The notes under the pieces are model-generated. The model did not search any database, was not told the origin of the DNA, and worked only from the letters and a program-made list of their open reading frames with translations. This document shows positions 5,472 through 27,447 of a DNA stretch of 27,673 nucleotides, piece by piece; positions within the stretch are counted from its first letter, which is position 1, and every line of letters starts with the position of its first letter. This DNA is from Emcibacteraceae bacterium. Its GTDB lineage: Bacteria; Pseudomonadota; Alphaproteobacteria; Sphingomonadales; Emcibacteraceae. A program made the translations under genes and the position numbers. The stretch lies in assembly GCA_016763335.1 (NCBI GenBank), contig JAESUD010000255.1, forward strand, positions 1 to 27,673, written 5' to 3'.

Positions 5472-5483
5472 TTTTAAACCTTT

Positions 5484-8957: not shown

Positions 8958-8958
8958 A

Positions 8959-9861: not shown

Positions 9862-9927
9862 AAATCTCTCATTGAATTGGTTCTGGTAATTGGAATGATG
9901 AGGTTTATGAATTGGGACCTTTATAAG

Positions 9928-11934: not shown

Positions 11935-13550
11935 GTAAATTTGTTATTCGAACTGCGGTTGGAGAAAATATTGGCATTGGGCATCTTATGCGGTGCTTGC
12001 ATTTGGCTCGTGAAATTGAAGCCCAAGGCGGACAAACTCTTTTTGCTCTTGATCACGTTACTGATGAATTGCTCTCTTTCTTGGAAGGGCAAGATTTCAT
12101 TTGTCTTTACAGCGCCGTACAAAGCCAAATCAACTCGCAAGAAGACGCTCGCTTGCTTTTAGAACATACCAAAGGCGCTGATTGGATCATATTGGATGAT
12201 TACCGAATAAACCAAGACTGGGAAGGCATCATCACCGCGGAGCAGCGTGCTACGAAGCTTTGCGTCATTGATGACCTTGAACGTTCTCACACATGCGATG
12301 TGGTCATCGACGTCGGCTCGCGCGGGGAACAAAGCCTCAAAGATTGGAATAGCCGTGTTCCTGAACACTGCCAAAAATTACTGGGCCCTCATTACGTTAT
12401 TTTATCTAAGCACTATCAGTCGCCATGGCAAAAGCAGAAGAAAAACGAAACTTATTCCATATTGCTGAGTTTAGGTGGAGGCGGTGATCTACAAATCTGC
12501 GTAGGGATAACGGACGCGTTATTGGATGCCTTTGACACATCGATTAATATCAACATCTTAATAGGCCCTTTATCTCAAGGTCAAGATGAGCTGAAAGCCA
12601 AATATAGGGACACTGATAATGTTAATTGTTTAACCGGTATACAGGAAGCTTATTCCATACTGCAGAAAACCGATTTATATATTGGAGCAGCAGGAACCAT
12701 GCTGCTTCAAGTGCGCTGTTTAAACATGCCTGCCTTAACCTTTTCTATAGCAAACAATCAAAATAATGATATTTTTAATCTCGAAAAAATTGGACATTAT
12801 TTTCATTTGAACAGTTATACGAATGACGACTTCCCCGCTTTCGCAAAATTTGCACAGATCGTATATGATCATTATGACCGCGTTTTGCAAATGGGGCTAG
12901 AACCACAAAAACCAATTGATGGCTTGGGAAGTAAGCGCATTACAGCAACGTTTTTTGAAAATGAAAGTATTGAACCTGCAAGCGCCAAATTACACAATAA
13001 TGATGATACTCTTGAACGGCTTGCAACGGGTTACGCGATACGCCCAGTGTCGGATCATGACATCAACCTTTACAGGTGCAGCCGCAATCTAGAAAAAAAC
13101 CATCAATTTATGTCTGTGGCCGAAAAGATCGCAGCCATCGGGCATTACAGCTGGTGGTTTAACAGTATGCGGGAATCTTTTATCGTCGAAAAAAACAACA
13201 AACCCAGCCTGATCATTTGGCATCAAAGAGTACAAGCAGGAGGGAAGGCCTTCATGAATGCTGGGTGGTTTGTGTGTGATGAAAAAGGGGCTGATTTCAA
13301 AGATGTTTTGCTTTCTATGAGCTGGCAGGTGAAATATTGCTATGAACATCACAAGGGGATTCCATGGCTGTCTGTCGTTAAAAAAGACAACACATTTGCC
13401 CAACAAATTAATGATTATTTTGGTTTTGAGAAAATGGAGGAAGATCATCCCTTCTATCCAGCGTGCACTCAGATGTTTTCATTAGCAACAAAACAGGATT
13501 TTCACTATATTATATTTGAAAACAAGAGCAAGATACGTAAACGAACATGA
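11931..13550 (+). CDS. pseG: PseG/SpsG-like nucleotide-sugar hydrolase fused to a GNAT-like domain
   Basis: A 539-aa two-domain protein. Residues 1 to about 330 resemble PseG, which hydrolyses UDP from UDP-2,4-diacetamido-2,4,6-trideoxy-L-altrose on the pseudaminic acid route. The motif GIGHLMRC holds the catalytic His18, WIILDDY and LGGGGD follow, and GAAGTMLLQ is in the UDP-binding part. Residues about 365-520 (YAIRPVSDHDINLYRCSRN, IGHYSWWFNS, a late NDYFGFEK) look like a divergent GNAT acyltransferase, reminiscent of PseH, which acetylates the C4 amine in the previous step. The usual acyl-CoA loop is not clear, so the activity of this half is uncertain. GGAG lies 10 nt before the ATG. The protein is cytoplasmic; no signal or membrane segment is seen. 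Confidence 0.82.
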   Translation: MSKFVIRTAVGENIGIGHLMRCLHLAREIEAQGGQTLFALDHVTDELLSFLEGQDFICLYSAVQSQINSQEDARLLLEHTKGADWIILDDYRINQDWEGIITAEQRATKLCVIDDLERSHTCDVVIDVGSRGEQSLKDWNSRVPEHCQKLLGPHYVILSKHYQSPWQKQKKNETYSILLSLGGGGDLQICVGITDALLDAFDTSININILIGPLSQGQDELKAKYRDTDNVNCLTGIQEAYSILQKTDLYIGAAGTMLLQVRCLNMPALTFSIANNQNNDIFNLEKIGHYFHLNSYTNDDFPAFAKFAQIVYDHYDRVLQMGLEPQKPIDGLGSKRITATFFENESIEPASAKLHNNDDTLERLATGYAIRPVSDHDINLYRCSRNLEKNHQFMSVAEKIAAIGHYSWWFNSMRESFIVEKNNKPSLIIWHQRVQAGGKAFMNAGWFVCDEKGADFKDVLLSMSWQVKYCYEHHKGIPWLSVVKKDNTFAQQINDYFGFEKMEEDHPFYPACTQMFSLATKQDFHYIIFENKSKIRKRT

Positions 13551-13595: not shown

Positions 13596-14648
13596 ATGAA
13601 AACAATTTCAATTGGTAATAAAAACATAGGTGACGGTGAACAAACGTATGTGATAGCCGAGATGTCAGGAAACCATGGTGGCGCTCTTGATAAATGCATT
13701 CGCCTTTTGCATGCAGCCTGTGACACTGGTGCAGACGCTATTAAATTACAAGCCTACCGGCCCGACACCATTACGCTCAAAAGCGACAAAGAAGACTTTG
13801 CTATCGCCAGCGACAATGCTTGGGCAAAGCATAAAAATCTCTATGAACTCTATGAGCAAGCCCATACCCCGTGGGAATGGTTTCCCACATTGTTTGAAGA
13901 AGCAGGCAAACGAGGTGTGGAATTATTTGGGTCTGTCTTTGATGAAACATCCGTCGATGAATTGGAAAAATACCCTTGCAAAGCTTATAAAATAGCCTCG
14001 CCTGAAATAGTAGACATGGGCCTGATTCAAAAGGTTGCGGCAACTGGAAAACCTGTGATTGTTTCCACTGGCCTTGCCGTTATTGACGACATCACACAGG
14101 CCGTTGGTTGGCTGCGTGATGCTGGGTGTAACGATATCATTTTGTTGAAATGCACATCCGCATACCCAACGCCGCCCGAAGAAGTGCACCTGAAAACCAT
14201 GAAGGATATGGAAGAAAAATTTGGCTGTTATACGGGTTTTTCCGATCATACCACAGGCATCGGTGTGTCCATAGGAGCTGTAGCCTTAGGCGCTAAAGTT
14301 ATTGAAAAACATGTCATGCTAGATGATGGCGAAGAAACTGTTGATAGTTTCTTTTCGTTGTCCCCACTTGAATTCCAACAGATGATCACAGAAATTCGCC
14401 GTGCTGAAAAAGCGATAGGCAGGGTCTATTACGACTTGAGTGATGCGGCGGCAAAGAACAAAAGTGGCAAGCGCTCTCTATACGTCAGCAAAGACATCAA
14501 AAAAGGTGATCTGTTCACAAATCATAACATTAAATCTGTGCGCCCTAGCTATGGCTTAGCTCCTAAGCACAAGCCCGAGGTTATTGGCCGGACCGCAAAT
14601 GTCGATCTTGAGGTTGGAGATCGCTTAAGTTGGGATGTCATCGACTAA
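13596..14648 (+). CDS. pseI: Pseudaminic acid / nonulosonate synthase, NeuB family
   Basis: A 350-aa enzyme condensing a 6-deoxy-diacetamido hexose with phosphoenolpyruvate to make a nine-carbon sialic-acid-like sugar. The NeuB TIM barrel covers about residues 15-265 (YVIAEMSGNHGG, ADAIKLQAYRPDTI, STGLAVIDDI, TGFSDHTTGIGVSIGAVALGA as its landmarks). The C-terminal SAF/antifreeze-like domain includes KRSLYVSKDIKKGD and VRPSYGLAPKH. The length and PseG neighbour favour PseI over NeuB or LegI. It starts 45 nt after pseG with no evident ribosome-binding site. PseB, PseC and a working cytidylyltransferase are not in this window and would have to lie elsewhere for the pathway to run. Confidence 0.9.
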   Translation: MKTISIGNKNIGDGEQTYVIAEMSGNHGGALDKCIRLLHAACDTGADAIKLQAYRPDTITLKSDKEDFAIASDNAWAKHKNLYELYEQAHTPWEWFPTLFEEAGKRGVELFGSVFDETSVDELEKYPCKAYKIASPEIVDMGLIQKVAATGKPVIVSTGLAVIDDITQAVGWLRDAGCNDIILLKCTSAYPTPPEEVHLKTMKDMEEKFGCYTGFSDHTTGIGVSIGAVALGAKVIEKHVMLDDGEETVDSFFSLSPLEFQQMITEIRRAEKAIGRVYYDLSDAAAKNKSGKRSLYVSKDIKKGDLFTNHNIKSVRPSYGLAPKHKPEVIGRTANVDLEVGDRLSWDVID

Positions 14649-14795: not shown

Positions 14796-15035
14796 GTGCC
14801 AAACAAAGAAAAATATGACCAAGTTTTCATTGAGAGTTTTTCACTGCCAGCGGATGCTGCGGTAGCAAAATTAGCCTATCAATCTATAACTGAATGGGAT
14901 TCAGTCGGGCATATGGGGTTAATTGCCAATCTTGAAGAAGCATTCGATATCATGATGGATATGGAAGATATTATTGATTTCAGCGACTATAAAACAGGCA
15001 TCGAAACTCTGAAAAAATATCAAATTAAAATTTGA
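14796..15035 (+). CDS. Acyl carrier protein
   Basis: A 79-aa acidic acyl carrier protein. WDSVGHMGLI places the phosphopantetheine attachment site at Ser36. The helix after it, NLEEAFDIMMDMEDI, is typical of the partner-binding face. The start is a GTG at 14796 with TTGAGGAA 8 nt upstream. Its stop overlaps the ligase ATG by one base (TGATG). Dedicated ACPs encoded beside an AMP ligase normally receive an acyl or aminoacyl group from that ligase. It is not the housekeeping AcpP, judging by its different sequence and its location away from other fatty-acid synthesis genes. Confidence 0.92.
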   Translation: MPNKEKYDQVFIESFSLPADAAVAKLAYQSITEWDSVGHMGLIANLEEAFDIMMDMEDIIDFSDYKTGIETLKKYQIKI

Positions 15036-16447
15036 TGCATCAAATACTATGCACTAACACTTCGGAACAAACGGCCATCATTACCGAAACTGGTAAAGTG
15101 GTCACATACTCCACTCTCTCTGATGATATTAAACGCACGGCGAGTTCTCTAAACGATCGAGAACTTATATTTATTCTATGCCGCAATGATTATATGTCAT
15201 TGTTATTTTATCTAGCCGCACTTGATGCAGGTGCTGTTCCTTTATTATTAACTGCTGAAGGCCAAGGTCCTCATCTTAAGAAGCTACTTGAATTATATTC
15301 ACCACAATGGGTAGTGGGCACACCAGGCACTGTTAATACACAAGGAAGCTTTGATCCTGTGTCACAGCATGAGGGGTACACCCTTTATCGAAACAACGCT
15401 TCAACAAGTCCACAATTACATGTGAATTTAGCTTTTTTAGCGACCACATCAGGCTCTACAGGCGATCCAAAATTGGTTCGCTTATCTGCTAATAATTTAA
15501 AGACCAATGCCGCAGCCATTGTAGAGTATTTAGATATTACGCCCGACGACCGTGCCATCACGTCCTTGCCTATAAGCTATTCTTACGGGTTATCTGTCGT
15601 TAACAGCCATCTGCTCGCAGGCGCCTCTATCGTCTTGTCCGGTCACTCATTAATGGAAAAAGAGTTTTGGCAAGAGATAAACACGCATAACGTCACAAGT
15701 TTTGCGGGGATACCTTATCATTATGAAATGTTACTACGCTTAGGGTTGCCGCGCCTCAAAATTCCTTCGATCACAAAGATGACACAGGCTGGAGGAAGGC
15801 TGGATGATGTAAAAATTGAAAAAATTCATAAATTCTGCGATGAGAACGGTATCAAATTTTGGGTAATGTATGGCCAGACAGAAGCCTCACCCAGAATGTC
15901 ATATTTGCCCAGGGAAGACACTGTGCGTAAACTGGGAAGCATTGGGATTCCGATTTCCGGTGGAAAGCTATGGATTAAAGGTGAAAGTGAAGACGATATT
16001 ACCTCTACAGGACAGATTGGCGAGCTCATATATGAAGGTGATAATGTCTGCCTAGGCTATGCTCGCAATAAAGAGGATCTCGCACAGGGAGACGCGAACC
16101 AAAATAAACTTTCAACTGGCGACCTTGCCCGATGCGATAAAGAAGGCTACTTTTACATTGAGGGCCGCTTGACTGGGTTTTTGAAAGTATTTGGAAACAG
16201 GATATCGCTTAATCAAATTGAGAAATACCTCAGCGAAAAAGGCTTTGTAAGTGCAGCCTACGGACAAGATGATCATTTGGTTGTCTCTGTAGTTGTTGAT
16301 AAAGAGCTTGATGAAGAAAAGATAAAACGTGAACTGGCCCATTTTACAGGGGTTAACATGACGGCAATATCGGTTGTGGGCATTAAAGAATTGCCCCGAT
16401 TAGCAACAGGGAAGATTGATTATCAATGTCTAGCAAAGACACAGTAA
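15035..16447 (+). CDS. Acyl-AMP ligase (ANL superfamily)
   Basis: A 470-aa adenylate-forming enzyme that activates a carboxylic acid with ATP and probably loads it on the adjacent ACP. The phosphate-binding motif TTSGSTGDPK lies near residues 137-146. YGQTEASPRMSYLP is the aromatic/acceptor motif, STGDLARCDKEGYFYIEGR holds the ribose-binding Asp and hinge, and LATGKIDYQ near the C-terminus carries the conserved lysine. The ATG at 15035 overlaps the ACP stop; a TTG at 15032 is an alternative giving one more residue. The substrate cannot be read from sequence: fatty, hydroxy or aromatic acids are all possible. At its end it overlaps the LuxE-like gene by 22 nt. Confidence 0.9.
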   Translation: MHQILCTNTSEQTAIITETGKVVTYSTLSDDIKRTASSLNDRELIFILCRNDYMSLLFYLAALDAGAVPLLLTAEGQGPHLKKLLELYSPQWVVGTPGTVNTQGSFDPVSQHEGYTLYRNNASTSPQLHVNLAFLATTSGSTGDPKLVRLSANNLKTNAAAIVEYLDITPDDRAITSLPISYSYGLSVVNSHLLAGASIVLSGHSLMEKEFWQEINTHNVTSFAGIPYHYEMLLRLGLPRLKIPSITKMTQAGGRLDDVKIEKIHKFCDENGIKFWVMYGQTEASPRMSYLPREDTVRKLGSIGIPISGGKLWIKGESEDDITSTGQIGELIYEGDNVCLGYARNKEDLAQGDANQNKLSTGDLARCDKEGYFYIEGRLTGFLKVFGNRISLNQIEKYLSEKGFVSAAYGQDDHLVVSVVVDKELDEEKIKRELAHFTGVNMTAISVVGIKELPRLATGKIDYQCLAKTQ

Positions 16448-17505
16448 AGTCTGTTTTAGACTGGCCTGCATTTGATATGGCAGCATCTGAGAAGCAAAAA
16501 AAGCTTCTTGGTGAAATGCAGCGCCTGACCGAAATGCATATGATCGCATGCCCGCCTTACCAATCTGTTATCAACAAACTGTACGCCCCTATTGAAAATA
16601 TGGATAGCTTGCAAGATGTACCCTTTATTCCTGTTCGTCTGTTCAAACACCAGCGCCTTTCAAGTGTACCCGAACGAGATATCATAAAGACGATGACATC
16701 ATCTGGGACCAGCGGTCACAAACCCTCCCAAATTTTCTTAGACAAAATAACTGCTGCCCTACAGGTTAAAGTTTTGGTAAAAATCGTGTCCAGCTTCTTG
16801 GGCTCTAAACGCCTACCTATGCTTGTCATTGATTGCAAAGCTACAGTGGCTGACCGGAAACGTTTTTCGGCCCGAACCGCAGGAATTCTTGGGTTTTCAA
16901 TTTTTAGCCACAACGTGGAATATGCCCTTGATGAGGACATGTCTCTTAATGAGGACCGCATCAAAGAATTTCTCTCGAAGCACGAAGGCCAAGACATTTT
17001 ATTGTTTGGATTCACCTTTATCATATGGCAAAATTTCCTTCAGGAATTAGAACGTCGTCAATTAAACCTTCCCTTGGAACGCGGCACCTTAATTCATGGC
17101 GGCGGCTGGAAGAAACTAGTGAACGAAGCGGTCGACAATGATGAATTCAAAGACCGTATTTCCAAAGCAACGGGAATTCAGAAAGTGCATAATTATTATG
17201 GGATGGTTGAACAAACTGGGTCCATATTTATGGAATGCGAAGAAGGCTATTTGCATGCGCCAGCTTGGGCCGACATTTTAATCCGTGACCCTATTGATTT
17301 TAAACCACTTCCTATTGGTGAAAAAGGCCTTGTACAGCTTCTTTCAGTTATACCGCACAGCTACCCTGGACATTGTATTTTAAGTGAAGATGTTGGGTTT
17401 ATTGTCGGGATTGATGATTGTGATTGCCACCGCAAAGGCACATATTTCAAAATTGAAGGACGGCTAGAGCAAGCAGAAGTACGAGGGTGCAGTGATAGTT
17501 ATTGA
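16426..17505 (+). CDS. luxE: LuxE-like acyl-protein synthetase
   Basis: A 359-aa member of the LuxE family, which activates an acid as acyl-AMP, binds it on a cysteine and passes it to the LuxC reductase. SSGTSGHKPSQIFLD (about residues 92-106) is the ATP-binding motif, and FGFTFIIWQ and HGGGWKKL are family landmarks. The C-terminus ends VRGCSDSY, keeping a cysteine (Cys355) where LuxE has its acyl-accepting residue. It overlaps the ligase by 22 nt and the LuxC-like gene by 14 nt, so the three are translationally coupled. No luxA, luxB or luxD is present, so luminescence is not implied. The gene symbol is by family only. Confidence 0.87.
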   Translation: MSSKDTVKSVLDWPAFDMAASEKQKKLLGEMQRLTEMHMIACPPYQSVINKLYAPIENMDSLQDVPFIPVRLFKHQRLSSVPERDIIKTMTSSGTSGHKPSQIFLDKITAALQVKVLVKIVSSFLGSKRLPMLVIDCKATVADRKRFSARTAGILGFSIFSHNVEYALDEDMSLNEDRIKEFLSKHEGQDILLFGFTFIIWQNFLQELERRQLNLPLERGTLIHGGGWKKLVNEAVDNDEFKDRISKATGIQKVHNYYGMVEQTGSIFMECEEGYLHAPAWADILIRDPIDFKPLPIGEKGLVQLLSVIPHSYPGHCILSEDVGFIVGIDDCDCHRKGTYFKIEGRLEQAEVRGCSDSY

Positions 17506-18709
17506 TAATAAAATAAGCATTGCTCAAACTGTCTTGGTAGGTAACCCTGAAACATTCGACAACCGTCCTGTGCCCGTATGGGATGCTGCGCGCGTGTCAT
17601 TCCTTTCTGACTTGTCCAAAGAACTTATCGCTCAAAAAGACACCAAAAACCTTCCTGATGTCATGAGCTTTGCCTATTGGATCAGAAAGGGGAACCTAAC
17701 AGCATTAGAAGAACAGACAACATATCAAGACTGCACACGCGTGGGCTTAGGCCTTGTTTTCCATATCTGCCCATCCAATGTGCCTGTGAATTTCGCATTT
17801 TCAATGGCCTTTGGTCTGCTTTCTGGTAACAGTTGTGTTCTTCGTCTGCCCTCAGCTGAAACACCCACCACTACACTCATTGTTGAGGTCGTAAAAAAAC
17901 TTTTACAAAACTCAAATCACAAAGCCATGAATGAAGCTTTGTTATTGTTGCGTTACGATCATAATGATGAAGTAAATGCTTTTTGGCTGTCCCAAGCCGA
18001 TGGACGAATTATCTGGGGCGGCAATCAGACTGTGCAACATATGCGTAGTTTTAAAGTCCCACCTCGCTCGCGGGAGATTGCATTTCCCGATCGTTATTCC
18101 CTCTGTGCATTACACTCTGATGCTATCTTAAATTTGGATGACAAAGGATTGGATGCATTTTGCAATCAACTTCACAATGACATTTATCTGATGGATCAGG
18201 CCGCTTGTTCATCCCCCCAATTGTTGGTGTGGACTGGGGACAGTAACCGTATCAAGATGGCCCAAGACAGACTGTGGCCTACCTTTATAGAGTGCACTAA
18301 AAAACGCTATGACATAACACCTATTCAGGTCATGGATAAATTTGTTGATGCTTGTGATGCGGCCTCGACCAATAAGAATATCACCAGTATTAAAACAGAC
18401 GACCCTATTTTATATCGTTATGAACTAAACAGCTTAGACCAGCATCAAGATGAAAGTCGCGGATACAGCGGGACAATCCACGAAATATCACTTACATCTC
18501 TCAATGAACTTGCTATTATCGTCAATGAAACGTTTCAGACGTTAACCTATTTTGGTTATAGTAAAGACGAATTGATGAGTTTTATTAATAACAATAGATT
18601 GCGGGGAATTGACCGGATCGTACCTGTAGGACAAGCATTGGACATGGATATAACGTGGGATGGCTACGATATGATTTCAAGTTTGTCTCGCATTGTAGAT
18701 ATACGTTAA
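17492..18709 (+). CDS. luxC: LuxC-like acyl reductase (aldehyde-forming)
   Basis: A 405-aa member of the LuxC/acyl-CoA reductase family. It reduces an acyl group delivered by LuxE (or from CoA/ACP) to an aldehyde with NADPH. The catalytic cysteine is probably Cys239 in MDQAACSSPQ. The cofactor-binding region includes HICPSNVPVNFAFSMAFGLL (about residues 91-110). The start is a GTG at 17492, 14 nt inside the LuxE-like gene. It is about 70 residues shorter than the Vibrio LuxC I remember, but the core is complete. An aldehyde from this enzyme would be a natural acceptor for the transketolase encoded further downstream. The symbol is by family only. Confidence 0.87.
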   Translation: MIVIDNKISIAQTVLVGNPETFDNRPVPVWDAARVSFLSDLSKELIAQKDTKNLPDVMSFAYWIRKGNLTALEEQTTYQDCTRVGLGLVFHICPSNVPVNFAFSMAFGLLSGNSCVLRLPSAETPTTTLIVEVVKKLLQNSNHKAMNEALLLLRYDHNDEVNAFWLSQADGRIIWGGNQTVQHMRSFKVPPRSREIAFPDRYSLCALHSDAILNLDDKGLDAFCNQLHNDIYLMDQAACSSPQLLVWTGDSNRIKMAQDRLWPTFIECTKKRYDITPIQVMDKFVDACDAASTNKNITSIKTDDPILYRYELNSLDQHQDESRGYSGTIHEISLTSLNELAIIVNETFQTLTYFGYSKDELMSFINNNRLRGIDRIVPVGQALDMDITWDGYDMISSLSRIVDIR

Positions 18710-18766
18710 AGCACGCATCAGTAAGATTTAATATAAAAATAAGCAAGAATATGAGGACGCACGCAC

Positions 18767-19234
18767 ATGGAAAAATTTAGCCTGAATTGTCTTGAACTAC
18801 AGGAATACCAGCCAAACCGTTACCCTTTCTTGATGATAGATCATGTAGATGAAGTCATGCCCGGTGAATATGCCACCGGCCATAAAAACCTTACCCTTAA
18901 CGAATGGTATTTTCCCGTCCATTTTCCTGATGGTCCAAACATGCCCGGTGCGCTCCAATTGGAAGCACTTGCACAAATGCTAACAGTTGCTATTACAACA
19001 CTGCCCGGATTAAAAGGAAAAGTGACACACGCTCTGCAACATACAGTTCGTTTTAAACGAGAAGTCCTACCAGGTGAACGGCTTGACATCCACACAGAAG
19101 TCCTGTCTTGGAAGCGTGGAATTTGCAAAGGAAAAGGCACTGCATCCGTAAACGGTGAAGTGGCTTGTGAAGCAGACATGACGATCACCATCCCAGAAAT
19201 ATTAGAAGAATATTTACCGAAGGTGAAAGCATAA
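18767..19234 (+). CDS. FabZ-like 3-hydroxyacyl dehydratase (hotdog fold), copy 1
   Basis: A 155-aa hotdog-fold protein close to FabZ. NRYPFLMIDHV matches the family start, and HFPDGPNMPGALQLEALAQ contains the catalytic pair His52 and Glu66. It would dehydrate a 3-hydroxyacyl thioester or a related beta-hydroxy carbonyl compound. The TGAGGA site precedes the ATG. It follows the LuxC-like gene by 57 nt and precedes the GMC gene by 5 nt. A second, more divergent copy is at 24839. Because the usual elongation enzymes are absent, its substrate may not be a normal fatty-acid intermediate. Confidence 0.87.
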   Translation: MEKFSLNCLELQEYQPNRYPFLMIDHVDEVMPGEYATGHKNLTLNEWYFPVHFPDGPNMPGALQLEALAQMLTVAITTLPGLKGKVTHALQHTVRFKREVLPGERLDIHTEVLSWKRGICKGKGTASVNGEVACEADMTITIPEILEEYLPKVKA

Positions 19235-19239
19235 CTAAT

Positions 19240-20847
19240 ATGAATTCCGTTGATGTTGTTATTGTAGGTTCTGGTGCCAGCGGGGCAGCTGCGGCCTGGA
19301 GCCTCAGCCGAGATGCCAATCTGCGCATAGTATGCCTCGAGCAAGGAGGGCAGGGTGACCCCAAGCAATACCCGACAACATTGGCCAATTGGGAATTAAG
19401 CCGTCATGGACTTGCCAGTTCGAAGCCAAGTGAGCGCAACAACCACGCAGATTACCCCATAGATGACACTAATTCCCCTATTTCTATTGCTAATTTCAAT
19501 GGGTTTGGCGGCAGTACGATATTGTACTCTGGCCATTTTCCACGGTTTCACCCCTCCGATTTTCGTACCAAACAACTGGACGGCGTTGGTGATGACTGGC
19601 CACTCAGCTATCAGGATTTGGAACCATATTTCACCCTCAATGAAAAAATGATGGGCATTGCCGGTTTGGTTGGTGACCCCGCGTATCCTGAATATGAAAA
19701 CTTGCTGCCTCCCGTTCCAATGGGACCTGCAGGGCAAAAAATAGCCAATGCCTTTAATACGTTGGGCTGGCATTGGTGGCCTTCTTATAGCGCAATTAAT
19801 ACCCGTTCACATGGGGGGCGTGGCTCTTGTATTAACCTTGGGCCTTGCAATACAGGCTGCACCCAAGGTGCAAAGGGAAGCGTCGATGTGACCTATTGGC
19901 CAATTGCCAAAAGACAAGGTGTTGAAATACGAACAGAGTGTTCAGTTTATGATATCTCCCTAAACCAGCACGATAAAGTAAACGGCGTGCATTATGTCGA
20001 TGCTAAAGGCTTACAGCAATTCCAGGAGGCCTCCGTTGTCATTTTAGCCTGTAGCGGAATTGGAACGCCTCGCCTGCTATTAAACTCAAAGTCCGTGGCA
20101 TTTCCAAATGGCCTTCTTAATGAGTATGGAAATGTGGGTCGCCATTTAATGCTGCACCCACTCGCATATACAGAAGCCGTTTTTGAAGATGACTTGAAAT
20201 CTAGCATTGGCCCACAAGGGTGCTGTATTCTTTCTCAACAATTTTATGAGACCGATATGGATAGGGATTTTTCACGCGGCTATACAATGCAAATATTAAG
20301 AGGCGCACCTCCTATGGAGACTGCGGTGTCCGGCTATATGATGCGGCGCATTCCTTTGGGGCCAGAGCACCATAAGGAGTTTGCTAAATATTTCAATCGC
20401 ACTGTTGGAATTGCCGTTATTGCAGAAGACCTACCACATGCAGAAAACTGTGTGGTGCTAGACGATGAGAACTGTGACATCAATGGCATGCCAGGAGTGA
20501 AAATTCATTATACCCTCGATGACAATACGAAAAAAATGCTGGCACATGGCGTGGAAAGAAGCAAACATGTACTTGAAACAGCCGGCGGGCGTGTGATATC
20601 ATCCTTTGCACCGGTAAAAAATGCAGGATGGCACTTAATGGGAACCGCACGCATGGGACATGATCCAAAGACCTCCGTTGTGAATTCCTTCGGCCAAGGA
20701 CACAATGTAGAAAACCTTTTTGTCGTCGACAGTAGCATTTTCACTACGTCTGGGGCGGTCAACCCTGTTGCAACGGCACAAGCCCTGACTTTAAAAATCT
20801 GCGATCATTTACGTAATAATTTATCAGACTTAGAGAGGTCTACATGA
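19240..20847 (+). CDS. GMC-family FAD oxidoreductase
   Basis: A 535-aa flavoprotein of the glucose-methanol-choline family, which oxidises alcohols or sugars to aldehydes, ketones or acids. The N-terminal VVIVGSGASGAAAAWSLS is the ADP-binding fold. FGGSTILYSGHFPRF and NLGPCNTGCTQGAKGS follow in the FAD and cysteine-bearing region typical of gluconate-dehydrogenase-like members. The C-terminal domain has the catalytic histidine (about His465 in GWHLMGTARMG) and Asn508 in GAVNPVATAQA. No signal peptide is visible, so it is probably cytoplasmic. It overlaps its presumed partner by 4 nt (ATGA). The likely substrate is an alcohol made by the neighbouring reductase and transketolase steps, which is inference. 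Confidence 0.9.
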   Translation: MNSVDVVIVGSGASGAAAAWSLSRDANLRIVCLEQGGQGDPKQYPTTLANWELSRHGLASSKPSERNNHADYPIDDTNSPISIANFNGFGGSTILYSGHFPRFHPSDFRTKQLDGVGDDWPLSYQDLEPYFTLNEKMMGIAGLVGDPAYPEYENLLPPVPMGPAGQKIANAFNTLGWHWWPSYSAINTRSHGGRGSCINLGPCNTGCTQGAKGSVDVTYWPIAKRQGVEIRTECSVYDISLNQHDKVNGVHYVDAKGLQQFQEASVVILACSGIGTPRLLLNSKSVAFPNGLLNEYGNVGRHLMLHPLAYTEAVFEDDLKSSIGPQGCCILSQQFYETDMDRDFSRGYTMQILRGAPPMETAVSGYMMRRIPLGPEHHKEFAKYFNRTVGIAVIAEDLPHAENCVVLDDENCDINGMPGVKIHYTLDDNTKKMLAHGVERSKHVLETAGGRVISSFAPVKNAGWHLMGTARMGHDPKTSVVNSFGQGHNVENLFVVDSSIFTTSGAVNPVATAQALTLKICDHLRNNLSDLERST

Positions 20848-21263
20848 TTGATATTTTATGCGACACTATCTTGCCCGGTGATGAAGACCTTGGGCTGCCG
20901 TCGGGGGCAATCATCGACATCGACCGCTATATTCACCGTGCTGACATAGGGGCACAAGTGAAAGAATATGGTCAATTGCTTGATGAGCTTTCCCTTGAAA
21001 AATTTAACGAAGGGTTTGTAGCGCTTGATGTAGGTTTGCGTTTGGAAATTGTTGAATTAAGCAGACGGAGAAACAATAGGCTTTCTAATATAATCATTAT
21101 ACATTGCATGAAAGCCTATTATACTGACGCCAATGTTTTAAAATGGTTGCCAGCAGGTGCTGTGCCGCCGTTTCCTGCAGGGAATCCATTGAAAGAAGAC
21201 GACTGGTCATTGTTAGAACCCGTTTATGAGAGAGGGCAGGCTTACCGTCCTGTATCGCCATGA
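20844..21263 (+). CDS. Gluconate 2-dehydrogenase subunit 3-like small subunit
   Basis: A 139-aa protein starting MIDILCDTILPGDEDLGLPSG, which resembles the gluconate 2-dehydrogenase subunit 3 family, small partners of GMC flavoproteins. It overlaps the GMC stop (ATGA) and the next gene's start (ATGA), so all three are coupled. Unlike many members it has no twin-arginine leader, which agrees with the lack of a signal on the GMC protein and suggests a cytoplasmic complex. The C-terminus, WLPAGAVPPFPAGNP, is rich in proline. The family call rests on the N-terminal pattern and the context. Confidence 0.65.
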   Translation: MIDILCDTILPGDEDLGLPSGAIIDIDRYIHRADIGAQVKEYGQLLDELSLEKFNEGFVALDVGLRLEIVELSRRRNNRLSNIIIIHCMKAYYTDANVLKWLPAGAVPPFPAGNPLKEDDWSLLEPVYERGQAYRPVSP

Positions 21264-22024
21264 CACAAATAACGTCCCAAATAAATCTCGATGGAGCATA
21301 TGCTATCATCACCGGAGCAAACCGAGGCATCGGCAAACAAATCAGTGAGACCTTCCAAGCGGCCGGTGCTCATGTGTTCGCTTGTACCCGCGAGCTTAAT
21401 TCAGACTTTATGGACTGGGTTGAGACACAAAAACAATCTGGGACCGGTGACGTCACGCCTATTCAACTTGATTTAACCGATGATCAATCCCTTAAATCCG
21501 CAATTAACGATATTCGAATGGTATCCTCCAAGATTGATATTTTGGTGAACAGCGCTGGCGTTGCCCATGGATCATTGTTTCAAATGACACCCATCTCCGA
21601 CATAAAGACCGTTTTTGACGTAAACTTCTTTGGCCAAATAGCCCTATCACAAAGCGTATCGCGCTTGATGGCTCGCAATAAATCCGGCTCTATCATCAAT
21701 ATATCATCATCAACTGCGCATATTGTCGATCCGGGAACTTTAGCCTACGGCACCAGCAAAGCGGCACTAAACCGTGCAACTAAGAGCATGGCAATAGAAC
21801 TTGGCGAAATGGGCATTCGCGTCAATGCAATTTCCCCCGGTGTGACCAACACAGAAATGTCGGCGCAAATGGATGACAATGCACGTTCTATGCTTATTGC
21901 CTCATCAGTCTTAAAGAAGGCTGCCTCTCCTCAAGATATTGCAAACACAGCTATTTTTCTTGCGTCTGACCTCTCTTCCCATATAACGGGACAGATCATA
22001 TGCGTTGACGGTGGCATTGTATGA
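21260..22024 (+). CDS. Short-chain dehydrogenase/reductase
   Basis: A 254-aa SDR. TGANRGIG (residues 18-25) binds NAD(P). NSAG (about 97-100) is the structural motif. The catalytic Ser-Tyr-Lys set lies in NISSSTAH and YGTSKAAL (Tyr163, Lys167). The C-terminal INAISPGVTNTEM and ITGQIICVDGG are typical of FabG-like ketoreductases. It probably reduces a ketone or oxidises a secondary hydroxyl made in this cluster. It is coupled to the small-subunit gene by a 4-nt overlap and followed 13 nt later by the transketolase pair. Confidence 0.9.
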   Translation: MTQITSQINLDGAYAIITGANRGIGKQISETFQAAGAHVFACTRELNSDFMDWVETQKQSGTGDVTPIQLDLTDDQSLKSAINDIRMVSSKIDILVNSAGVAHGSLFQMTPISDIKTVFDVNFFGQIALSQSVSRLMARNKSGSIINISSSTAHIVDPGTLAYGTSKAALNRATKSMAIELGEMGIRVNAISPGVTNTEMSAQMDDNARSMLIASSVLKKAASPQDIANTAIFLASDLSSHITGQIICVDGGIV

Positions 22025-22037
22025 GAATGGAGCCCAG

Positions 22038-22856
22038 ATGAAACAAAAAGATCTTGAGAAGATGGCCTTAGAGATGCGCCGTAAAATCATCGACATCAGT
22101 CATAACTGCGGACATTCGACCCATGTTGGTGGAGCATTATCAATGGTGGAACTCATGACTGTCTTATACGGACATGTTTTGAACTTTGATGTGAAAAACC
22201 CCCGCTGGGATGACCGCGATCGTTTCATCCTTAGCAAAGGTCATGGCGTTTTGGGCTATTACCCTGCTCTCTTGTTGTCCGGCATTATTTCCGAAGAAAC
22301 CTTTAACACTTTTATGACCAATGGCACTGACCTCATTGCCCATCCTGTTATGAATATGGATTTAGGTATTGAATCCTCCAACGGCAGTTTAGGGCAAGGT
22401 ATCTCCATGGCGGTGGGCATTGCACTTGCTGCGAAGAAAAAAAATAAACCTTACAATACCTATACCTTGATAGGGGACGGAGAATCAAACGAAGGTTCGG
22501 TATGGGAAGCGGCCATGCTTGCACCGCATTTAGGCCTTGATAATTTGACCCTCCTTGTGGATTACAACCGTATGCAAAATGACGGTGCAGGGAAAGACAT
22601 TATCAATATCGAAAACATGCCTGAGCGCTTCAAAGCCTTTGGCTGGTATGTGATTGAAGTTGATGGACACAATATCAGCGAAATCGTCGACGCTTTCCAA
22701 GATAGTTCAAACAGCGGCAAGCCAAAAGCCATTGTGGCCCATACCATCAAAGGCAAAGGCGTGCCTTTTATGGAAAATGAAAAAAGCTGGCATCACAACC
22801 GTGTCAATAAAACGAACTATGACCTTGCTATCGAAGCTTTGAATGGTACCCAATAA
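22038..22856 (+). CDS. Transketolase, N-terminal (TPP pyrophosphate-binding) subunit
   Basis: A 272-aa split-transketolase subunit. ISHNCGHSTHVGGALSM carries the substrate-side histidines, and GDGESNEGSVWEAAM followed by VDYNRMQ is the thiamine diphosphate GDG...N motif. The start chosen is the ATG at 22038 (MKQKDLEKM), with GGAG just upstream; a GTG-type start at 22005 would overlap the SDR gene. It pairs with the next gene, which overlaps it by one base. Such split pairs are common in surface-polysaccharide and secondary-metabolite clusters, where they transfer two-carbon ketol units to aldehydes. Confidence 0.92.
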   Translation: MKQKDLEKMALEMRRKIIDISHNCGHSTHVGGALSMVELMTVLYGHVLNFDVKNPRWDDRDRFILSKGHGVLGYYPALLLSGIISEETFNTFMTNGTDLIAHPVMNMDLGIESSNGSLGQGISMAVGIALAAKKKNKPYNTYTLIGDGESNEGSVWEAAMLAPHLGLDNLTLLVDYNRMQNDGAGKDIINIENMPERFKAFGWYVIEVDGHNISEIVDAFQDSSNSGKPKAIVAHTIKGKGVPFMENEKSWHHNRVNKTNYDLAIEALNGTQ

Positions 22857-23824
22857 TGGAAATTACTGAACGCAATGCAAAACAGTGGGCGCGCCTTGGT
22901 CCCCGTGGTTTCTTTGGTCAAGCCATGCTGGATATTGCCGAAGGTAACCCCAACATCATTGCTATGTCAGCAGATTTGGGTAGTTCCTCAGGTCTTGAAC
23001 GTTTCAAAACCGCATACCCTGATCAATTCGTCAATGCAGGTATTGCCGAGCAAAATATGATTGGTGTCGCTGGTGGGTTGGCCAAGGAAGGTTTTAATGT
23101 CTTTGCCACGTCATTTTCGCCTTTTATCGCCATCCGTGCAGGCGAACAAGTCCGTATGAATTTGGGCTACATGCATCTGAATGTAAAAGCCGTTGCCATT
23201 GGCGCCGGCATTAACATGGGCTTTCTTGGAAACTCTCATTTTGGTCTCGAAGACCTGTCATTGATGCGCGCTATTCCTAAAATGACAATCATCAGCCCTG
23301 CAGATTGCGGTGAAGTGTTAAAAACCGTCCAAGCCGCCGCTAATTTTGACGGCCCGATGTATATCCGCCTGACTGGAGACGGCACATGCAAACCGGTTTA
23401 TCTAGACGACTATGATTTCCAAATAGGCAAGTCTGTGAGTTTGCGCGAAGGCAGTGATGTCACTATTGTGGCCTGTGGCTCTATGGTAAAAGAATCTCTT
23501 GATGCCGCAGATTTATTGGCCGAACAAGGTATCGAAGCCACCGTCATCAATATGCACACCATTAAGCCCCTTGATCACAAAGCATTGGACATAGCGGCCG
23601 AGGGGACACCAGCTATCGTTACCGTAGAAGAACACTCCACCATCGGAGGGCTGGGAAGCTGTGTCTCCGAATATATGGCACCACGCAAAGACCGCGTCCC
23701 CCATTTGTCGATCGGCCTGCCTGATGAGTATATAAAGACAGGCTCTTACCGTTGGATGCTCGAACAACAAGGTCTGCTTGGTACTTCCATCTGCACAAAA
23801 ATTGCAGACTTTTTGAAACAATAG
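22856..23824 (+). CDS. Transketolase, C-terminal (pyrimidine-binding) subunit
   Basis: A 322-aa partner with the pyrimidine-binding and C-terminal transketolase domains. NAGIAEQNMIGVAGGLA holds the glutamate that activates thiamine diphosphate. RAGEQVRMNLGY and the GNSHFGLEDLSLMRAIP stretch are typical of transketolase/DXS-like proteins, and VTVEEHSTIGGLGS is in the C-terminal domain. TAATGG makes a one-base overlap with the N-terminal subunit gene, so both are made in step. Together with the upstream LuxE/LuxC aldehyde source this pair is the most distinctive part of the cluster. Confidence 0.92.
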   Translation: MEITERNAKQWARLGPRGFFGQAMLDIAEGNPNIIAMSADLGSSSGLERFKTAYPDQFVNAGIAEQNMIGVAGGLAKEGFNVFATSFSPFIAIRAGEQVRMNLGYMHLNVKAVAIGAGINMGFLGNSHFGLEDLSLMRAIPKMTIISPADCGEVLKTVQAAANFDGPMYIRLTGDGTCKPVYLDDYDFQIGKSVSLREGSDVTIVACGSMVKESLDAADLLAEQGIEATVINMHTIKPLDHKALDIAAEGTPAIVTVEEHSTIGGLGSCVSEYMAPRKDRVPHLSIGLPDEYIKTGSYRWMLEQQGLLGTSICTKIADFLKQ

Positions 23825-23831
23825 GGAAGCT

Positions 23832-24833
23832 ATGGCGAACAACACTTATAAAGCCTTCGTGGTTGAAAAAAATGAAGACAAAACATTTTCATACAGCGTC
23901 AAAGACGACTTGGTCGTGGACGACCTGCCCGATGATGAAGTCTTGATCCGCGTTTATTACTCCACCGTTAATTACAAAGACAGTCTGTCGATTCAAGGTA
24001 ATCCCGCCATCACACGTCGCTTCCCGCATACCCCAGGTATTGATGCTGCTGGCGTCGTCGAAGCTTCAAAGAGTGGTGATTACACAGTTGGTGACAAAGT
24101 TGTCATAATAGGTCAACCCATGGGCATGGCGTCGCCTGGCGGTTTCGGTCAATATATTCGCGTCCCTGCGTCGTGGGCCATGAAAGTGGCTGCAGACACC
24201 GATTTGGAACAGACCATGGTTTATGGCACCGCGGGATATACCGCAGCACTGTCCGTGGATGCTCTCAAGCATCACTTTGGCGATCTTACAAACAGGAAAA
24301 TTATTGTCACAGGGGCGACCGGTGGCGTTGGCTGCATCTCTGTGACCTTGTTAAGCCAGCTAGGATGTCAGGTGACTGCAGTGAGCGGAAAAGCAACTGC
24401 AACTCCATTCCTAAACAGCATTGGGGCCTCAGAGATTTTGGGTCGATCGGAGTTAGAAAGCAAGGGCGGACAAAATCTACTGCGCCCTCAGTGGGACGGG
24501 GCCATTGATGTGGCTGGTGGTAACACGCTGGCGACCATTCTTAAATTGATTGATGATAATGGCTGCGTCGCAGCCACAGGGATGGTCGGCGACACCACCT
24601 TAAATACTACAGTCCTCCCGTTCATTTTGCGCGGCATCACGCTGGTTGGCATAAATGCAGAAAACACTGACATACACACTCGCCAAACTATATGGAATAA
24701 ATACAATTTTCATGACATGCCGGGTAACAGTGCTACATTGTATCACCTCATTACCCTGAACGATCTGCCCGCAGCCATGGACGCCATCATTCAAGGGACG
24801 CAAATTGGGCGAATTGTTGTTGATCTTAGATAA
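23832..24833 (+). CDS. YhdH/AcuI-type NADPH-dependent enoyl or quinone reductase
   Basis: A 333-aa medium-chain dehydrogenase/reductase without zinc ligands. STVNYKDSLSIQGNPAITRRFPHTPG (recognised in part; it covers about residues 49-74) is characteristic of the YhdH/AcuI group, some of which reduce acrylyl-CoA. VTGATGGVGCISVTLLSQLG is the cofactor-binding motif. It starts 7 nt after the transketolase pair and ends 5 nt before the second FabZ-like gene. A natural role is saturating the double bond left by one of the FabZ-like enzymes. The substrate is not known. Confidence 0.88.
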   Translation: MANNTYKAFVVEKNEDKTFSYSVKDDLVVDDLPDDEVLIRVYYSTVNYKDSLSIQGNPAITRRFPHTPGIDAAGVVEASKSGDYTVGDKVVIIGQPMGMASPGGFGQYIRVPASWAMKVAADTDLEQTMVYGTAGYTAALSVDALKHHFGDLTNRKIIVTGATGGVGCISVTLLSQLGCQVTAVSGKATATPFLNSIGASEILGRSELESKGGQNLLRPQWDGAIDVAGGNTLATILKLIDDNGCVAATGMVGDTTLNTTVLPFILRGITLVGINAENTDIHTRQTIWNKYNFHDMPGNSATLYHLITLNDLPAAMDAIIQGTQIGRIVVDLR

Positions 24834-24838
24834 GGGTA

Positions 24839-25291
24839 TTGAGCGTGACCAATAAAATTTTCCAAATTGAAATCTCTGACAGACTAGATATTTCGCCCCC
24901 TTTTTTGATGATCGATGTGTATGAAGAGATTACCACAGGCGAACGCGCGATCGGCACCAAACATTTAAAAAGTGATGATTGGTTTTTGAATTGTCACTTG
25001 CCCAAAGATCAAGCCATGCCCGCAACATTGCAAACCGAAGGCATGCTGCAAACCTTGGTGTTATTGATATACAGTAAAGAGGACCATGGCGATCACAGAT
25101 CATTCATCACAGACAGCAAAGTAAAATTCAAATCATCGCCTGAGCCCGGCCATGACATCATCTACGAAGCACAATTGCTGTCCTTCCGCCGTGGCATCGC
25201 CAAAGGCACAGTAGTTGGCACCAGCAATGGCAAAGAGATTTGCAGTGGAGAGTTTACTTACGCCTCACCCCATTTGATGGTGTTGAGATAG
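24839..25291 (+). CDS. FabZ-like hotdog protein, copy 2 (divergent)
   Basis: A 150-aa protein related to copy 1 at 18767. PPFLMIDVYEE matches the family start. HLPKDQAMPATLQTEGMLQ keeps the catalytic His53 and Glu67 with the same 14-residue spacing as copy 1, but the glycine of the usual MPG is alanine and much of the rest differs. LSFRRGIAKGTVVGTSNGK aligns with the copy 1 C-terminal part (LSWKRGICKGKG). The start is the TTG at 24839 or the GTG at 24845, with AAGGG just before. It is the last gene of the run. It may be a dehydratase for a different chain, or the two may form a mixed dimer. Confidence 0.82.
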   Translation: MSVTNKIFQIEISDRLDISPPFLMIDVYEEITTGERAIGTKHLKSDDWFLNCHLPKDQAMPATLQTEGMLQTLVLLIYSKEDHGDHRSFITDSKVKFKSSPEPGHDIIYEAQLLSFRRGIAKGTVVGTSNGKEICSGEFTYASPHLMVLR

Positions 25292-25734: not shown

Positions 25735-25772
25735 TGAGAGTCTGCTTTGGGTCCAGACTGTGTGAAAAGTCT
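25735..25772 (+). repeat. Left terminal inverted repeat of the IS
   Basis: Begins TGAGAGTCTGCTTTGG. It pairs with 27410-27447 at 33 of 38 positions; the mismatches all lie in the outer 18 bases. Confidence 0.85.
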
Positions 25773-25817
25773 TCCCTCTCTGCTATAGTTGTTTTTTTAC
25801 CATATTGGGGATTACTG

Positions 25818-27251
25818 ATGACAAACTTTATTGAAGGAGAAGACCGTTTTCAGGCGACATTGTTTCCCGATCAGCTTGATGATTATATATCTGAAGACAG
25901 TCTGGTGCGGGTGATTGATGTTTTTGTCGAGCAGATGGAACTTGGCGATTTGGGTTTTAAAACTGTTCCTGAGACTAAAGGCAGACCAGCTTATCATCCG
26001 GCGGTGATGCTCAAGATTTATATTTATGGTTATTTAAACCGCATCCAATCATCTCGTCGTCTTGAACGGGAGGCAGGTCGTAATGTTGAGTTGATGTGGC
26101 TGACCTGTCGCCTCTCGCCCGATTTTAAAACCATTGCTGATTTCCGTAAAGACAACGGCTCTGCCATTGCCAGGGTTTGCCGTGAGTTTGTTCTGATCTG
26201 TCGCAAGCTCAATCTCTTCACTAAAGCGTTGGTGGCTATAGACGGCAGCAAGTTTAAAGCGGTCAATGCCCGCGACCGTAATGTTACCAAGGGGAAGATT
26301 ACGCGCCGTCTTGAGCAGATTGATCAGAGTATTGCCCGTTACCTTGGTCAGATTGAGAGCAATGACAGGAGTAGTGATGACGATGTGGATTATAAGACGG
26401 GGCAATTGGAAAACAAAATCAGCAAGCTTCAGCAGGAAGTTGGCCGCCTGAACGCTTTGCAGAAAGAGCTATTGAAAAAAGATGATCAACAAATATCAGA
26501 GACTGACCCTGACGCCCGTTCAATGGCAACAAGTGGCCGTGGCAGCGGTATGGTTGGCTATAACGTGCAAAGTGCGGTCGATACAAAGCATCATCTGATT
26601 GTCGCTCATGAGGTCACCAATGTCGGTCATGACCGCTCTGCATTGCATGATATGGCGAAGGCTGCAAAAGAGATTATTGATAGTGAAACACTGGAGGTGG
26701 TTGCTGACCGTGGTTATTATAATGGCAGTGAGATTTTAAAGTGCGAGAAGTCCGGCATTATCCCGCATGTTCCCAAGACCCAGACATCAAACAGCTTAAG
26801 CAAAGGTCTGTTTGATAAACGGGACTTTAAGTATATTGAGAAAGATGATGAATATCTCTGTCCTGCCGCAGAGCGATTGATCTGGCGTATGAGAACGGTG
26901 GAAAAGGGCAAGGAGCTGAACAAATACTGGAGTAGTAATTGTCAGAACTGTCACCTTAAGCCCAAATGCACCACAGGCAAGAGCCGCCGCGTTACGCGCT
27001 GGCAGCACGAAGCGACATTAGAAGCCATGGAAGCAAGACTTGCCCAAAATCCCGGTATGATGAAGATCCGCAAATCAACGGTCGAGCATCCGTTCGGCAC
27101 CATAAAATCATGGATGGGCGCAACACATTTTCAGATGCGGCGTTTAAAGAACGTCAGTACGGAAATGTCACTGCATGTGCTGGCCTATAACCTCAAACGG
27201 GCAATGAAAATCATCGGCATTATCCCCCTGATAGAGGCAATGAGGACATAA
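25818..27251 (+). CDS. IS1182-family transposase
   Basis: A 477-aa DDE transposase from the ATG at 25818 (MTNFIEGEDRFQ), which has GGGGA just upstream. A start at 25734 would add 28 residues encoded by the terminal repeat and is not believed. The N-terminal DUF772-like domain includes RPAYHPAVMLKIYIYGYLN and FKTIADFRKDN. The catalytic acidic residues fit VAIDGSKFKA, VVADRGYYNGSE and KSTVEHPFGTIKSWMG. A cysteine cluster (CQNCHLKPKC) lies before the last motif, as in other IS1182/IS5-like proteins. The frame is uninterrupted. Confidence 0.93.
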   Translation: MTNFIEGEDRFQATLFPDQLDDYISEDSLVRVIDVFVEQMELGDLGFKTVPETKGRPAYHPAVMLKIYIYGYLNRIQSSRRLEREAGRNVELMWLTCRLSPDFKTIADFRKDNGSAIARVCREFVLICRKLNLFTKALVAIDGSKFKAVNARDRNVTKGKITRRLEQIDQSIARYLGQIESNDRSSDDDVDYKTGQLENKISKLQQEVGRLNALQKELLKKDDQQISETDPDARSMATSGRGSGMVGYNVQSAVDTKHHLIVAHEVTNVGHDRSALHDMAKAAKEIIDSETLEVVADRGYYNGSEILKCEKSGIIPHVPKTQTSNSLSKGLFDKRDFKYIEKDDEYLCPAAERLIWRMRTVEKGKELNKYWSSNCQNCHLKPKCTTGKSRRVTRWQHEATLEAMEARLAQNPGMMKIRKSTVEHPFGTIKSWMGATHFQMRRLKNVSTEMSLHVLAYNLKRAMKIIGIIPLIEAMRT

Positions 27252-27409
27252 TATGCTCTTTTTGCTGACTTGGTCGCCTCAGAACGGCCATGAGAGGTTA
27301 GTTTTATCATTAACTGATCAAAAACAATAAAAACATCGACCACCAATGACTGCGAAAGCAGCCAAGATCGGGAGAATAGGACAAGTTTTATTAACTAAGA
27401 CCCAGATGC

Positions 27410-27447
27410 AGACTTTTCACACAGTCTGGGTCGAAAGCGGACTGTCA
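27410..27447 (-). repeat. Right terminal inverted repeat of the IS
   Basis: Read on the minus strand it begins TGACAGTCCGCTTTCG and matches the left end at 33 of 38 positions. It marks the end of the element, 76 nt before the pirin-like start codon. Confidence 0.85.

Follow-up and report, generated by a model that had tools for sequence, protein, structure and literature searches.

A split-transketolase operon beside pseudaminic acid genes in an Emcibacteraceae bacterium: a putative source of short hydroxylated acyl donors for a surface glycan

Overview

A 27,673-nucleotide (nt) stretch of DNA from an Emcibacteraceae bacterium (assembly GCA_016763335.1, contig JAESUD010000255.1, positions 1 to 27,673; hereafter the window) contains, at 14796..25291, twelve forward-strand open reading frames (ORFs) that form one tight operon next to genes for the biosynthesis of pseudaminic acid (Pse). 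We consider it likely that this operon provides acyl donors for a glycan and, with somewhat less assurance, favour the more specific reading that the product is a short acyl group bearing hydroxyls, made on the operon's own acyl carrier protein (ACP) to serve as N-acyl donor for a Pse derivative, most likely on flagellin. For the extension of that group by two carbons through a transketolase we would put the case at a little short of even. The core of the gene set is already known from flagellin glycosylation islands; its split-transketolase extension appears undescribed in the open-licence PMC literature searched.

Results and Discussion

A conserved operon without a ketosynthase

The genes follow the order ACP, adenosine monophosphate (AMP) ligase, LuxE, LuxC, FabZ1, GMC dehydrogenase, GMC small subunit, SDR, N-terminal transketolase chain (TktN), C-terminal transketolase chain (TktC), YhdH and FabZ2 (Table 1), with junctions ranging from -22 to +57 nt, and their family assignments rest on Pfam and NCBIfam profile matches. 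The start of TktN is probably the ATG at 22038, 13 nt past the SDR gene, the alternative being a TTG at 22005. The ACP gave no Pfam or NCBIfam match, its best PDB match being a weak one to a putative ACP (2lml, E 0.061). The small partner of the GMC enzyme has no direct Pfam match; some of its close homologues carry PF13618 or are named 'gluconate 2-dehydrogenase subunit 3'. A first-pass annotation of this DNA had described twelve same-strand, tightly spaced genes of these families, and the ORFs, junctions and profile matches bear it out. Since another genome of the same genus (G007, locus L020; hereafter the sister genome) has all twelve in an unchanged order, with identities of 58-87%, the operon is more than a chance arrangement.

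The residues that we take to be catalytic are retained throughout: the Cys of LuxE in 34 of 34 loci, the Cys of LuxC in 32 of 32, the His and Glu of FabZ1 in 9 of 9, the His/Asn of the GMC enzyme in 6 of 6 and the Glu of the transketolase in 8 of 8. The twelve-gene arrangement is thereby confirmed as real, conserved and, where checked, catalytically intact. Neither ketosynthase, thioesterase, luciferase nor LuxD was found among the Pfam matches of the 24 window proteins scanned, and LuxE and LuxC score below the NCBIfam long-chain equivalog cut-offs (88 versus 550 bits and 38 versus 750 bits). A luminescence function was rejected on the absence of LuxD and LuxAB from those matches and on the low equivalog scores; ordinary type II fatty-acid or polyketide synthesis was rejected on the absence of a ketosynthase match from the operon. 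The first-pass annotation had excluded both, and its proposal of a dedicated acyl pathway is supported here, aldehyde formation followed by C2 ketol transfer being also the best mechanism that we can offer. A scan for promoters and terminators returned sites at about the level seen in shuffled sequence.

Linkage to pseudaminic acid genes

The pseG and pseI genes lie directly upstream of the operon on the same strand, 147 nt separating the end of pseI from the ACP gene, and both products exceed their family cut-offs (176 bits for PseG and 443 bits for PseI). The first-pass annotation had made no use of this adjacency, and the stand-alone product pathway that it envisaged was not borne out. In the sister genome pseG/pseI flank the twelve genes on one side and a cytidylyltransferase gene and pseB on the other, and the stretch has flagellin matches at either end.

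In the window's own genome, flagellin-linked pse genes are found on a different contig (C334; locus L047, 672-6806). There, beside a flagellin gene, pseB (516 bits) and pseI (491 bits) are both open and above their cut-offs, pseC and pseG are each present in the assembly as two frame-broken pieces, and a full-length pseF-like cytidylyltransferase falls below the level of the PseF model. The cytidylyltransferase remnant of the window gives a gapped alignment to the cytidylyltransferase of the sister genome. Its identification as PseF was dropped: TIGR03584 yields 20 bits for the window remnant as against 206 for the C334 copy, neither reaching the model. The two pse loci may together give one pathway, or assembly errors may be present.

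Some of these observations weigh against a Pse-directed function in the source strain. The window cytidylyltransferase is degenerate and every copy found falls short of the PseF model, while the frame-broken pseC and pseG of C334 leave the working of the pathway there unsure. In addition, PF01973, which we take to be a marker of Maf-type flagellin glycosyltransferases, was not found in the window's own genome.

An altered transketolase substrate site

Both transketolase chains find their best PDB match in the split transketolase of C. hydrogenoformans (6yak for TktN, 6yaj for TktC). In human numbering, transketolase residues His416, Asp424 and Arg474 function in phosphate and C2-hydroxyl binding. 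All three are among the modelled active-site residues of the human enzyme in the part of PMC8016368 that deals with them. At the corresponding columns the eight TktCs of the LuxE/LuxC-associated module have Gly or Ala, then Leu, Ser or Phe, and finally Gly, none of the eight keeping any of the canonical His, Asp and Arg. The last column is the most clear-cut, with Gly in 8/8 module copies and Arg in 11/11 comparators, namely nine plasmid-borne split TktCs and the human and C. hydrogenoformans enzymes; the nine were hand-picked from 716 records, and the neighbours of one (L110) were unreadable. His is kept in six and Asp in four of the 11, the C. hydrogenoformans enzyme, unlike the module copies, having all three residues. 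The catalytic Glu is present in all 19 sequences.

A retained Glu alongside an altered substrate site suggests that the chemistry of the module transketolase should remain and that its substrate recognition has changed. Such a site is as expected for an acceptor without phosphate and alpha-hydroxyl, for example an aldehyde made by LuxC, and the donor may also have changed. Several facts limit the force of this reasoning. Loss of His416 and Asp424 is also seen in several comparators, so that we rejected the idea of a site loss unique to the module and regard the Arg change alone as distinguishing it; the L083 copy has another Arg three residues on; and an earlier, smaller alignment placed D, A, G, T and N at the Arg column, though still no Arg.

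A common core and a rarer extension

Occurrence was tabulated over 34 loci, the window and 33 fetched stretches. Most were picked through LuxE or LuxC, which biases the core frequencies upward and must be set against the conservation argument. Left out were L024, with a partial LuxC and an SDR match only, seven genomes with weak matches, and six LuxE genomes (four with frames of 822-833 amino acids resembling fused LuxE-LuxC, one near a contig end and one partial); absences in L023 and L056 fall at contig ends and may be false. ACP was detected in 32 loci, the ligase in 33, LuxE in 34, LuxC in 32 and SDR in 23, with PseI-like and PseG-like matches in 11 each. The extended layer of TktN, TktC, FabZ1, GMC enzyme and small subunit is complete in six: the window, L020, L022, L025, L049 and L082. 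L025 is the R. leguminosarum plasmid pRLgr12_3, where the extended module occupies 17148-28197. TktC and the GMC gene co-occur in six loci, the latter never without the former (Fisher p 2e-5), and YhdH and FabZ2 are confined to the window and L020. The first-pass annotation had pointed to co-occurrence of LuxE, LuxC, split transketolase and ACP as informative; LuxE/LuxC cluster with TktN/TktC in 8/34 loci.

Beyond the table, LuxC matched in 13 of 147 related genomes including the window's own, with five other strong matches; for LuxE the counts were 10 among 385 genomes at class level and 23 among 398 at phylum level, both including the window's own. FabZ2 was found in two of 296 genomes of the order (E <= 1e-25), and a LuxC scan of the genome collection gave two relatives, one an Emcibacteraceae metagenome-assembled genome (MAG). 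This patchy distribution is as expected of a horizontally moving island. The homologue lists of the small subunit (31 rows) and FabZ2 (67 rows including itself) have six putatively shared contigs, two of which are those of the window and the sister genome, and others of which carry rows named Magnetovibrio sp. PR-2 and Roseospira marina. Matches to TktC, LuxC, the GMC enzyme and FabZ share ten Rhizobium plasmid records, two of which have them in pieces.

In the LuxE and LuxC trees the extended loci form two well-supported trios within one wider group, the support for which is good with LuxC and weak with LuxE. A single origin of the extended loci is compatible with both trees (approximately unbiased test, p 0.42 and 0.38 for LuxE and LuxC, respectively); the stronger statement that they are one clade was not carried, the trees showing two supported trios instead.

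Not all loci fit a single Pse-directed module. TktC is present in L004 and L083 without GMC enzyme or FabZ1, and L082 lacks an SDR match. Furthermore, no pse gene was detected within the stretches of L022, L025, L049 and L082; Pse is therefore not an obligate acceptor.

L004 and L083 each combine the transketolase pair with two SDR matches. In L004 (6254-21128, a Ruminococcaceae MAG) the split transketolase is accompanied by two LuxE and two LuxC matches, an acetolactate-synthase-type thiamine pyrophosphate enzyme and an HMGL-like gene, which may point to another way of building the acid on the same core. L083 (8700-18500), with its core, an LbH acyltransferase match and neither GMC enzyme nor FabZ1, is possibly a simpler C2-extending form. 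In L095 and L096, and in related genomes of the same genus, a LuxE match in a long open frame (831 amino acids) is followed by LuxC and then an AMP ligase, ACP not being detected; this type occupies a far branch of the LuxE tree.

Tailoring enzymes

The GMC enzyme has full-length PDB matches to glucose and fructose dehydrogenases dependent on flavin adenine dinucleotide (FAD). From its matches on 617 plasmid records, four of the best outside Rhizobium (49-51% identity) were examined: all adjoin a mandelate-racemase-family gene, and in three the operon also encodes sugar transporters and an aldehyde dehydrogenase. This kinship with sugar dehydrogenases suggests that the chain is probably polyhydroxylated and not a fatty acid. 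The usual substrates of FabZ-like and enoyl-reductase enzymes are thioesters. The two FabZ genes of the operon are likely pathway-specific, because a third gene of the FabA/Z family lies elsewhere in the genome, on contig C156. Counting against any detailed scheme, the FabZ, SDR and MDR folds are versatile, which makes the tailoring step assigned to each a guess.

Acyltransferase candidates

The domain that follows PseG in the fused protein of the window (residues 361-539) has three protein-database sequences at the search sensitivity used, namely those of the window and the sister genome and one on what is putatively the same contig as a FabZ2 homologue. Since the full-length model (predicted local distance difference test, pLDDT, 55) was dominated by its PseG half, the C-terminal domain was modelled alone. 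The model has GNAT topology, and GNATs make up the whole list of 50 PDB fold matches, with C. jejuni PseH in tenth place; its low confidence (pLDDT 62) tells against leaning heavily on it. PDB sequence searches with the PseG-GNAT protein and with the GMC small subunit found nothing.

GNATs carry a glycine-rich motif for coenzyme A (CoA) binding in a loop that, in all three known sequences of the fused domain, lacks it. Two PseH-like relatives (L097 and L100) were compared, of which G099 has the motif (HGKGIG) and G779 a weaker form. The missing CoA loop is a hint, not proof, that the donor may be an acyl-ACP. Profile searches for PseH gave weak matches in the window's own (G000) and sister genomes, 39-43 bits at best and none on pse contigs; each of the four core-type genomes searched has a match of 64-90 bits some 2-13 kb from LuxE, and all six genomes stay under the family cut-off of 93 bits. 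An acyltransferase candidate is present in every extended locus: the GNAT fusion in the window and L020, a hexapeptide (LbH) transferase adjoining ACP in L025, L049 and L082, and a PF02522-type transferase about 3 kb from ACP in L022.

Relation to known systems

Passages of PMC7874193 describe Aeromonas Group II islands in which pse genes are accompanied by ACP, SDR (3-oxoacyl-ACP reductase), ligase (AMP-dependent synthetase), LuxE and LuxC, and passages of PMC4875605 place the same core in enterobacterial flagellin glycosylation islands. The window has these five genes clustered, with pse genes adjacent. PseG-PseH chimeric proteins are also mentioned there, whereas the words 'transketolase' and 'GMC oxidoreductase' are absent from both texts. 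As far as those passages go, FabZ is limited to one enterobacterial strain, and the islands have many glycosyltransferases, none of which was seen among the window proteins scanned. The cluster, called unknown in the first-pass annotation, is thus so in part: its core had already been published in flagellin islands of the pse type, but for the extended set no product, and for the combined gene set no description, was found in the open-licence PMC literature as judged by titles, term counts and passages.

The flagellin of Aeromonas AH-3 carries, according to part of PMC7874193, a 376.14 Da Pse derivative and a 102 Da group of unknown identity. By arithmetic, Pse5Ac7Ac (316.127) plus C2H4O2 gives 376.148, corresponding to replacement of one acetyl by dihydroxybutanoyl, and dihydroxybutanoyl itself (102.032) fits the second group. 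In V. cholerae O1 the acceptor is perosamine in the lipopolysaccharide, we know of no transketolase or GMC enzyme in the cluster, and RfbN is LuxC/LuxE-like. RfbL and RfbK of that O-antigen cluster handle 2,4-dihydroxybutanoate, a carrier protein and a ligase activating the short hydroxy acid, and are likened to the window from their description in parts of PMC12208996. The Aeromonas masses and the RfbL precedent make it plausible, by analogy, that the core makes a dihydroxybutanoyl-type donor and that the extension contributes a further two carbons and tailors them. The same gene order was not met in a pathway of known product; RfbL/RfbK, the nearest, are a related smaller set.

A precedent for the extension comes from azinomycin biosynthesis, in which AziC3-AziC6 activate an acid and reduce it to an aldehyde before a two-gene transketolase adds two carbons (described in part of PMC9570651). 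As in the window, going by that description, acid-to-aldehyde enzymes are clustered with a two-gene transketolase; azinomycin employs a kinase and a phosphate reductase where the window has LuxE and LuxC, and its pathway yields an amino acid used in an antibiotic. The LuxCDE fatty acid reductase has the LuxC and LuxE families and the catalytic Cys in common with the window, which differs in showing no LuxA, LuxB or LuxD, in scoring far below the equivalog cut-offs and in having ACP and ligase.

A proposed route and its alternatives

From gene content, conservation and pse linkage we infer a substrate, an order of steps, a product, ACP as donor and flagellin as target. LuxE would activate a small acid for reduction to an aldehyde by LuxC, and the split transketolase would then extend the chain by a two-carbon ketol unit, no ketosynthase being needed. 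The SDR could reduce the ketone and the GMC pair oxidise a sugar-like hydroxyl, hydroxyls being removed by FabZ-like enzymes, which would eliminate water, and YhdH, which would reduce the double bond. The AMP ligase would load the resulting acid onto ACP, from which the PseG-fused GNAT domain would transfer the acyl group to the 4-amino group of the uridine diphosphate (UDP)-sugar before hydrolysis by PseG. The route in full, from aldehyde through ketol transfer by a transketolase not acting on phospho-aldoses, deoxygenation and ACP loading to ACP-dependent acylation that leaves a sugar-like acyl on a nonulosonic acid, is offered tentatively. If true, it would be a second logic for growing carrier-protein acyl chains for surface glycans, aldehyde plus C2 ketol as against Claisen condensation, and would give a testable function to the noted but unexplained 'fatty acid' genes of flagellin islands. 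Rhizobium leguminosarum plasmids provide a culturable form of the extended module.

The alternative that survives best, itself unlikely, has the transketolase, GMC enzyme, FabZ and SDR working on the sugar itself to give a branched or C2-extended form, the core being a separate source of a simple acyl group such as dihydroxybutanoyl. The transketolase pair is absent from 26/34 loci, GMC relatives are sugar dehydrogenases, and the fit of the 376.14 Da derivative from core-type Aeromonas islands to dihydroxybutanoyl means that the core may suffice. Nevertheless, the extended set never occurs without core genes in our table of mostly LuxE/LuxC-selected loci, FabZ-like and enoyl-reductase enzymes generally work on thioesters, and the sugar genes around extended loci differ.

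Formation of a fatty or lipid-like chain, turning the glycan into a liposugar, was suggested for the core in passages by the authors of PMC7874193 and PMC4875605 and has the FabZ, FabG-like and acyl-ligase families in its favour; we think it improbable, given the lack of a ketosynthase, LuxE and LuxC scores far below long-chain equivalog cut-offs, a dehydrogenase of sugar type and Aeromonas masses that fit a short hydroxylated group. We would give equally little credence to an independent pathway whose product, an acyl or hydroxyketone compound, is secreted or stays in the cell and whose position beside pse genes is due to chance. In its favour, the operon has every enzyme needed to form an aldehyde and transfer a ketol unit, pse genes are missing from the stretches read for four extended loci, and a Ponticoccus core stretch is without an annotated glycan gene; on the other side, the pseG/pseI adjacency is kept in the sister genome, many loci have pse-like matches or glycosyltransferases next to the core genes, and of the three sequences of the PseG-fused domain two are in twelve-gene loci and the third is putatively on the contig of a FabZ2 homologue. 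Least probable of all is an island decaying in the source genome and making nothing there, as the degenerate cytidylyltransferase, the broken pseC/pseG of C334, the IS1182 element and the integrase-like remnant near by might suggest, since all twelve operon genes are open with catalytic residues intact where checked, pseI and pseB of C334 are open, and the frame breaks may be artefacts of an assembly in 371 contigs.

Features of the window and further observations

Table 1. Coordinates and supporting matches of the operon, the adjoining pse genes and the downstream element
Feature	Coordinates	Strand	Evidence
Remnant CMP-sugar cytidylyltransferase gene, pseF-like, degenerate	11339..11854	+	PF02348; first ORF stops at 11677
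pseG hydrolase with fused C-terminal PseH-like GNAT domain (about residues 361-539), candidate acyltransferase	11931..13550	+	TIGR03590 176 bits, residues 3-278
pseI, pseudaminic acid synthase	13596..14648	+	TIGR03586 443 bits, cut-off 340
Acyl carrier protein, dedicated	14796..15035	+	Ser of WDSxGHM motif in 32/32 loci with gene detected; weak match to putative ACP 2lml
Acyl-AMP ligase, proposed acyl-ACP ligase	15032..16447	+	PF00501 147 bits; detected in 33/34 loci
LuxE-like acyl-protein synthetase	16426..17505	+	PF04443 182 bits; Cys355 kept 34/34
LuxC-like acyl reductase, aldehyde-forming	17492..18709	+	PF05893 104 bits; Cys239 kept 32/32
FabZ1-like dehydratase	18767..19234	+	NF000582 122 bits; 70-87% identity in other five extended loci
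GMC FAD dehydrogenase, sugar-dehydrogenase type	19240..20847	+	PF05199/PF00732; glucose dehydrogenase 6a2u E 7e-46, residues 3-527
Small subunit, gluconate 2-dehydrogenase subunit 3 family	20844..21263	+	Homologues with PF13618
SDR oxidoreductase	21260..22024	+	PF13561 205 bits
Transketolase N-terminal chain (TktN)	22038..22856	+	PF00456 161 bits; GDG...N motif; 6yak E 1e-62
Transketolase C-terminal chain (TktC), substrate-site residues altered	22856..23824	+	PF02779/PF02780; 6yaj E 2e-68
YhdH/acrylyl-CoA reductase-family enoyl reductase	23832..24833	+	TIGR02823 363 bits, cut-off 297; only window and L020 of 34 loci
Second FabZ-like dehydratase (FabZ2)	24839..25291	+	PF07977 58 bits
IS1182-family element bounding operon downstream	25735..27447	+	NF033551 451 bits

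The IS1182 element has 38-nt inverted repeats (25735-25772 and 27410-27447) that are 87% complementary. In the sister genome a B12-binding radical SAM protein is encoded directly after FabZ2 (L020, 15508-17250); it has no significant match in the window and a 78% homologue on C104, a 3.4 kb contig of the assembly. An integrase N-terminal remnant (PF14659) on the reverse strand at 10472-10888, between the sulfur genes and the pse operon, is a possible island edge. The sulfur genes themselves form a sulfate assimilation run on the reverse strand (325-9930) that comprises a cysteine-synthase-like PALP enzyme, a LysR regulator, two PAPS-reductase-domain proteins, sulfite reductase, siroheme synthase and, assigned from translation alone, CysNC (7026-9014). 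Finally, a LuxE-like protein (27% identity, 88% coverage) is encoded in a fecal phage record (MT835565.1, 11830-12783).

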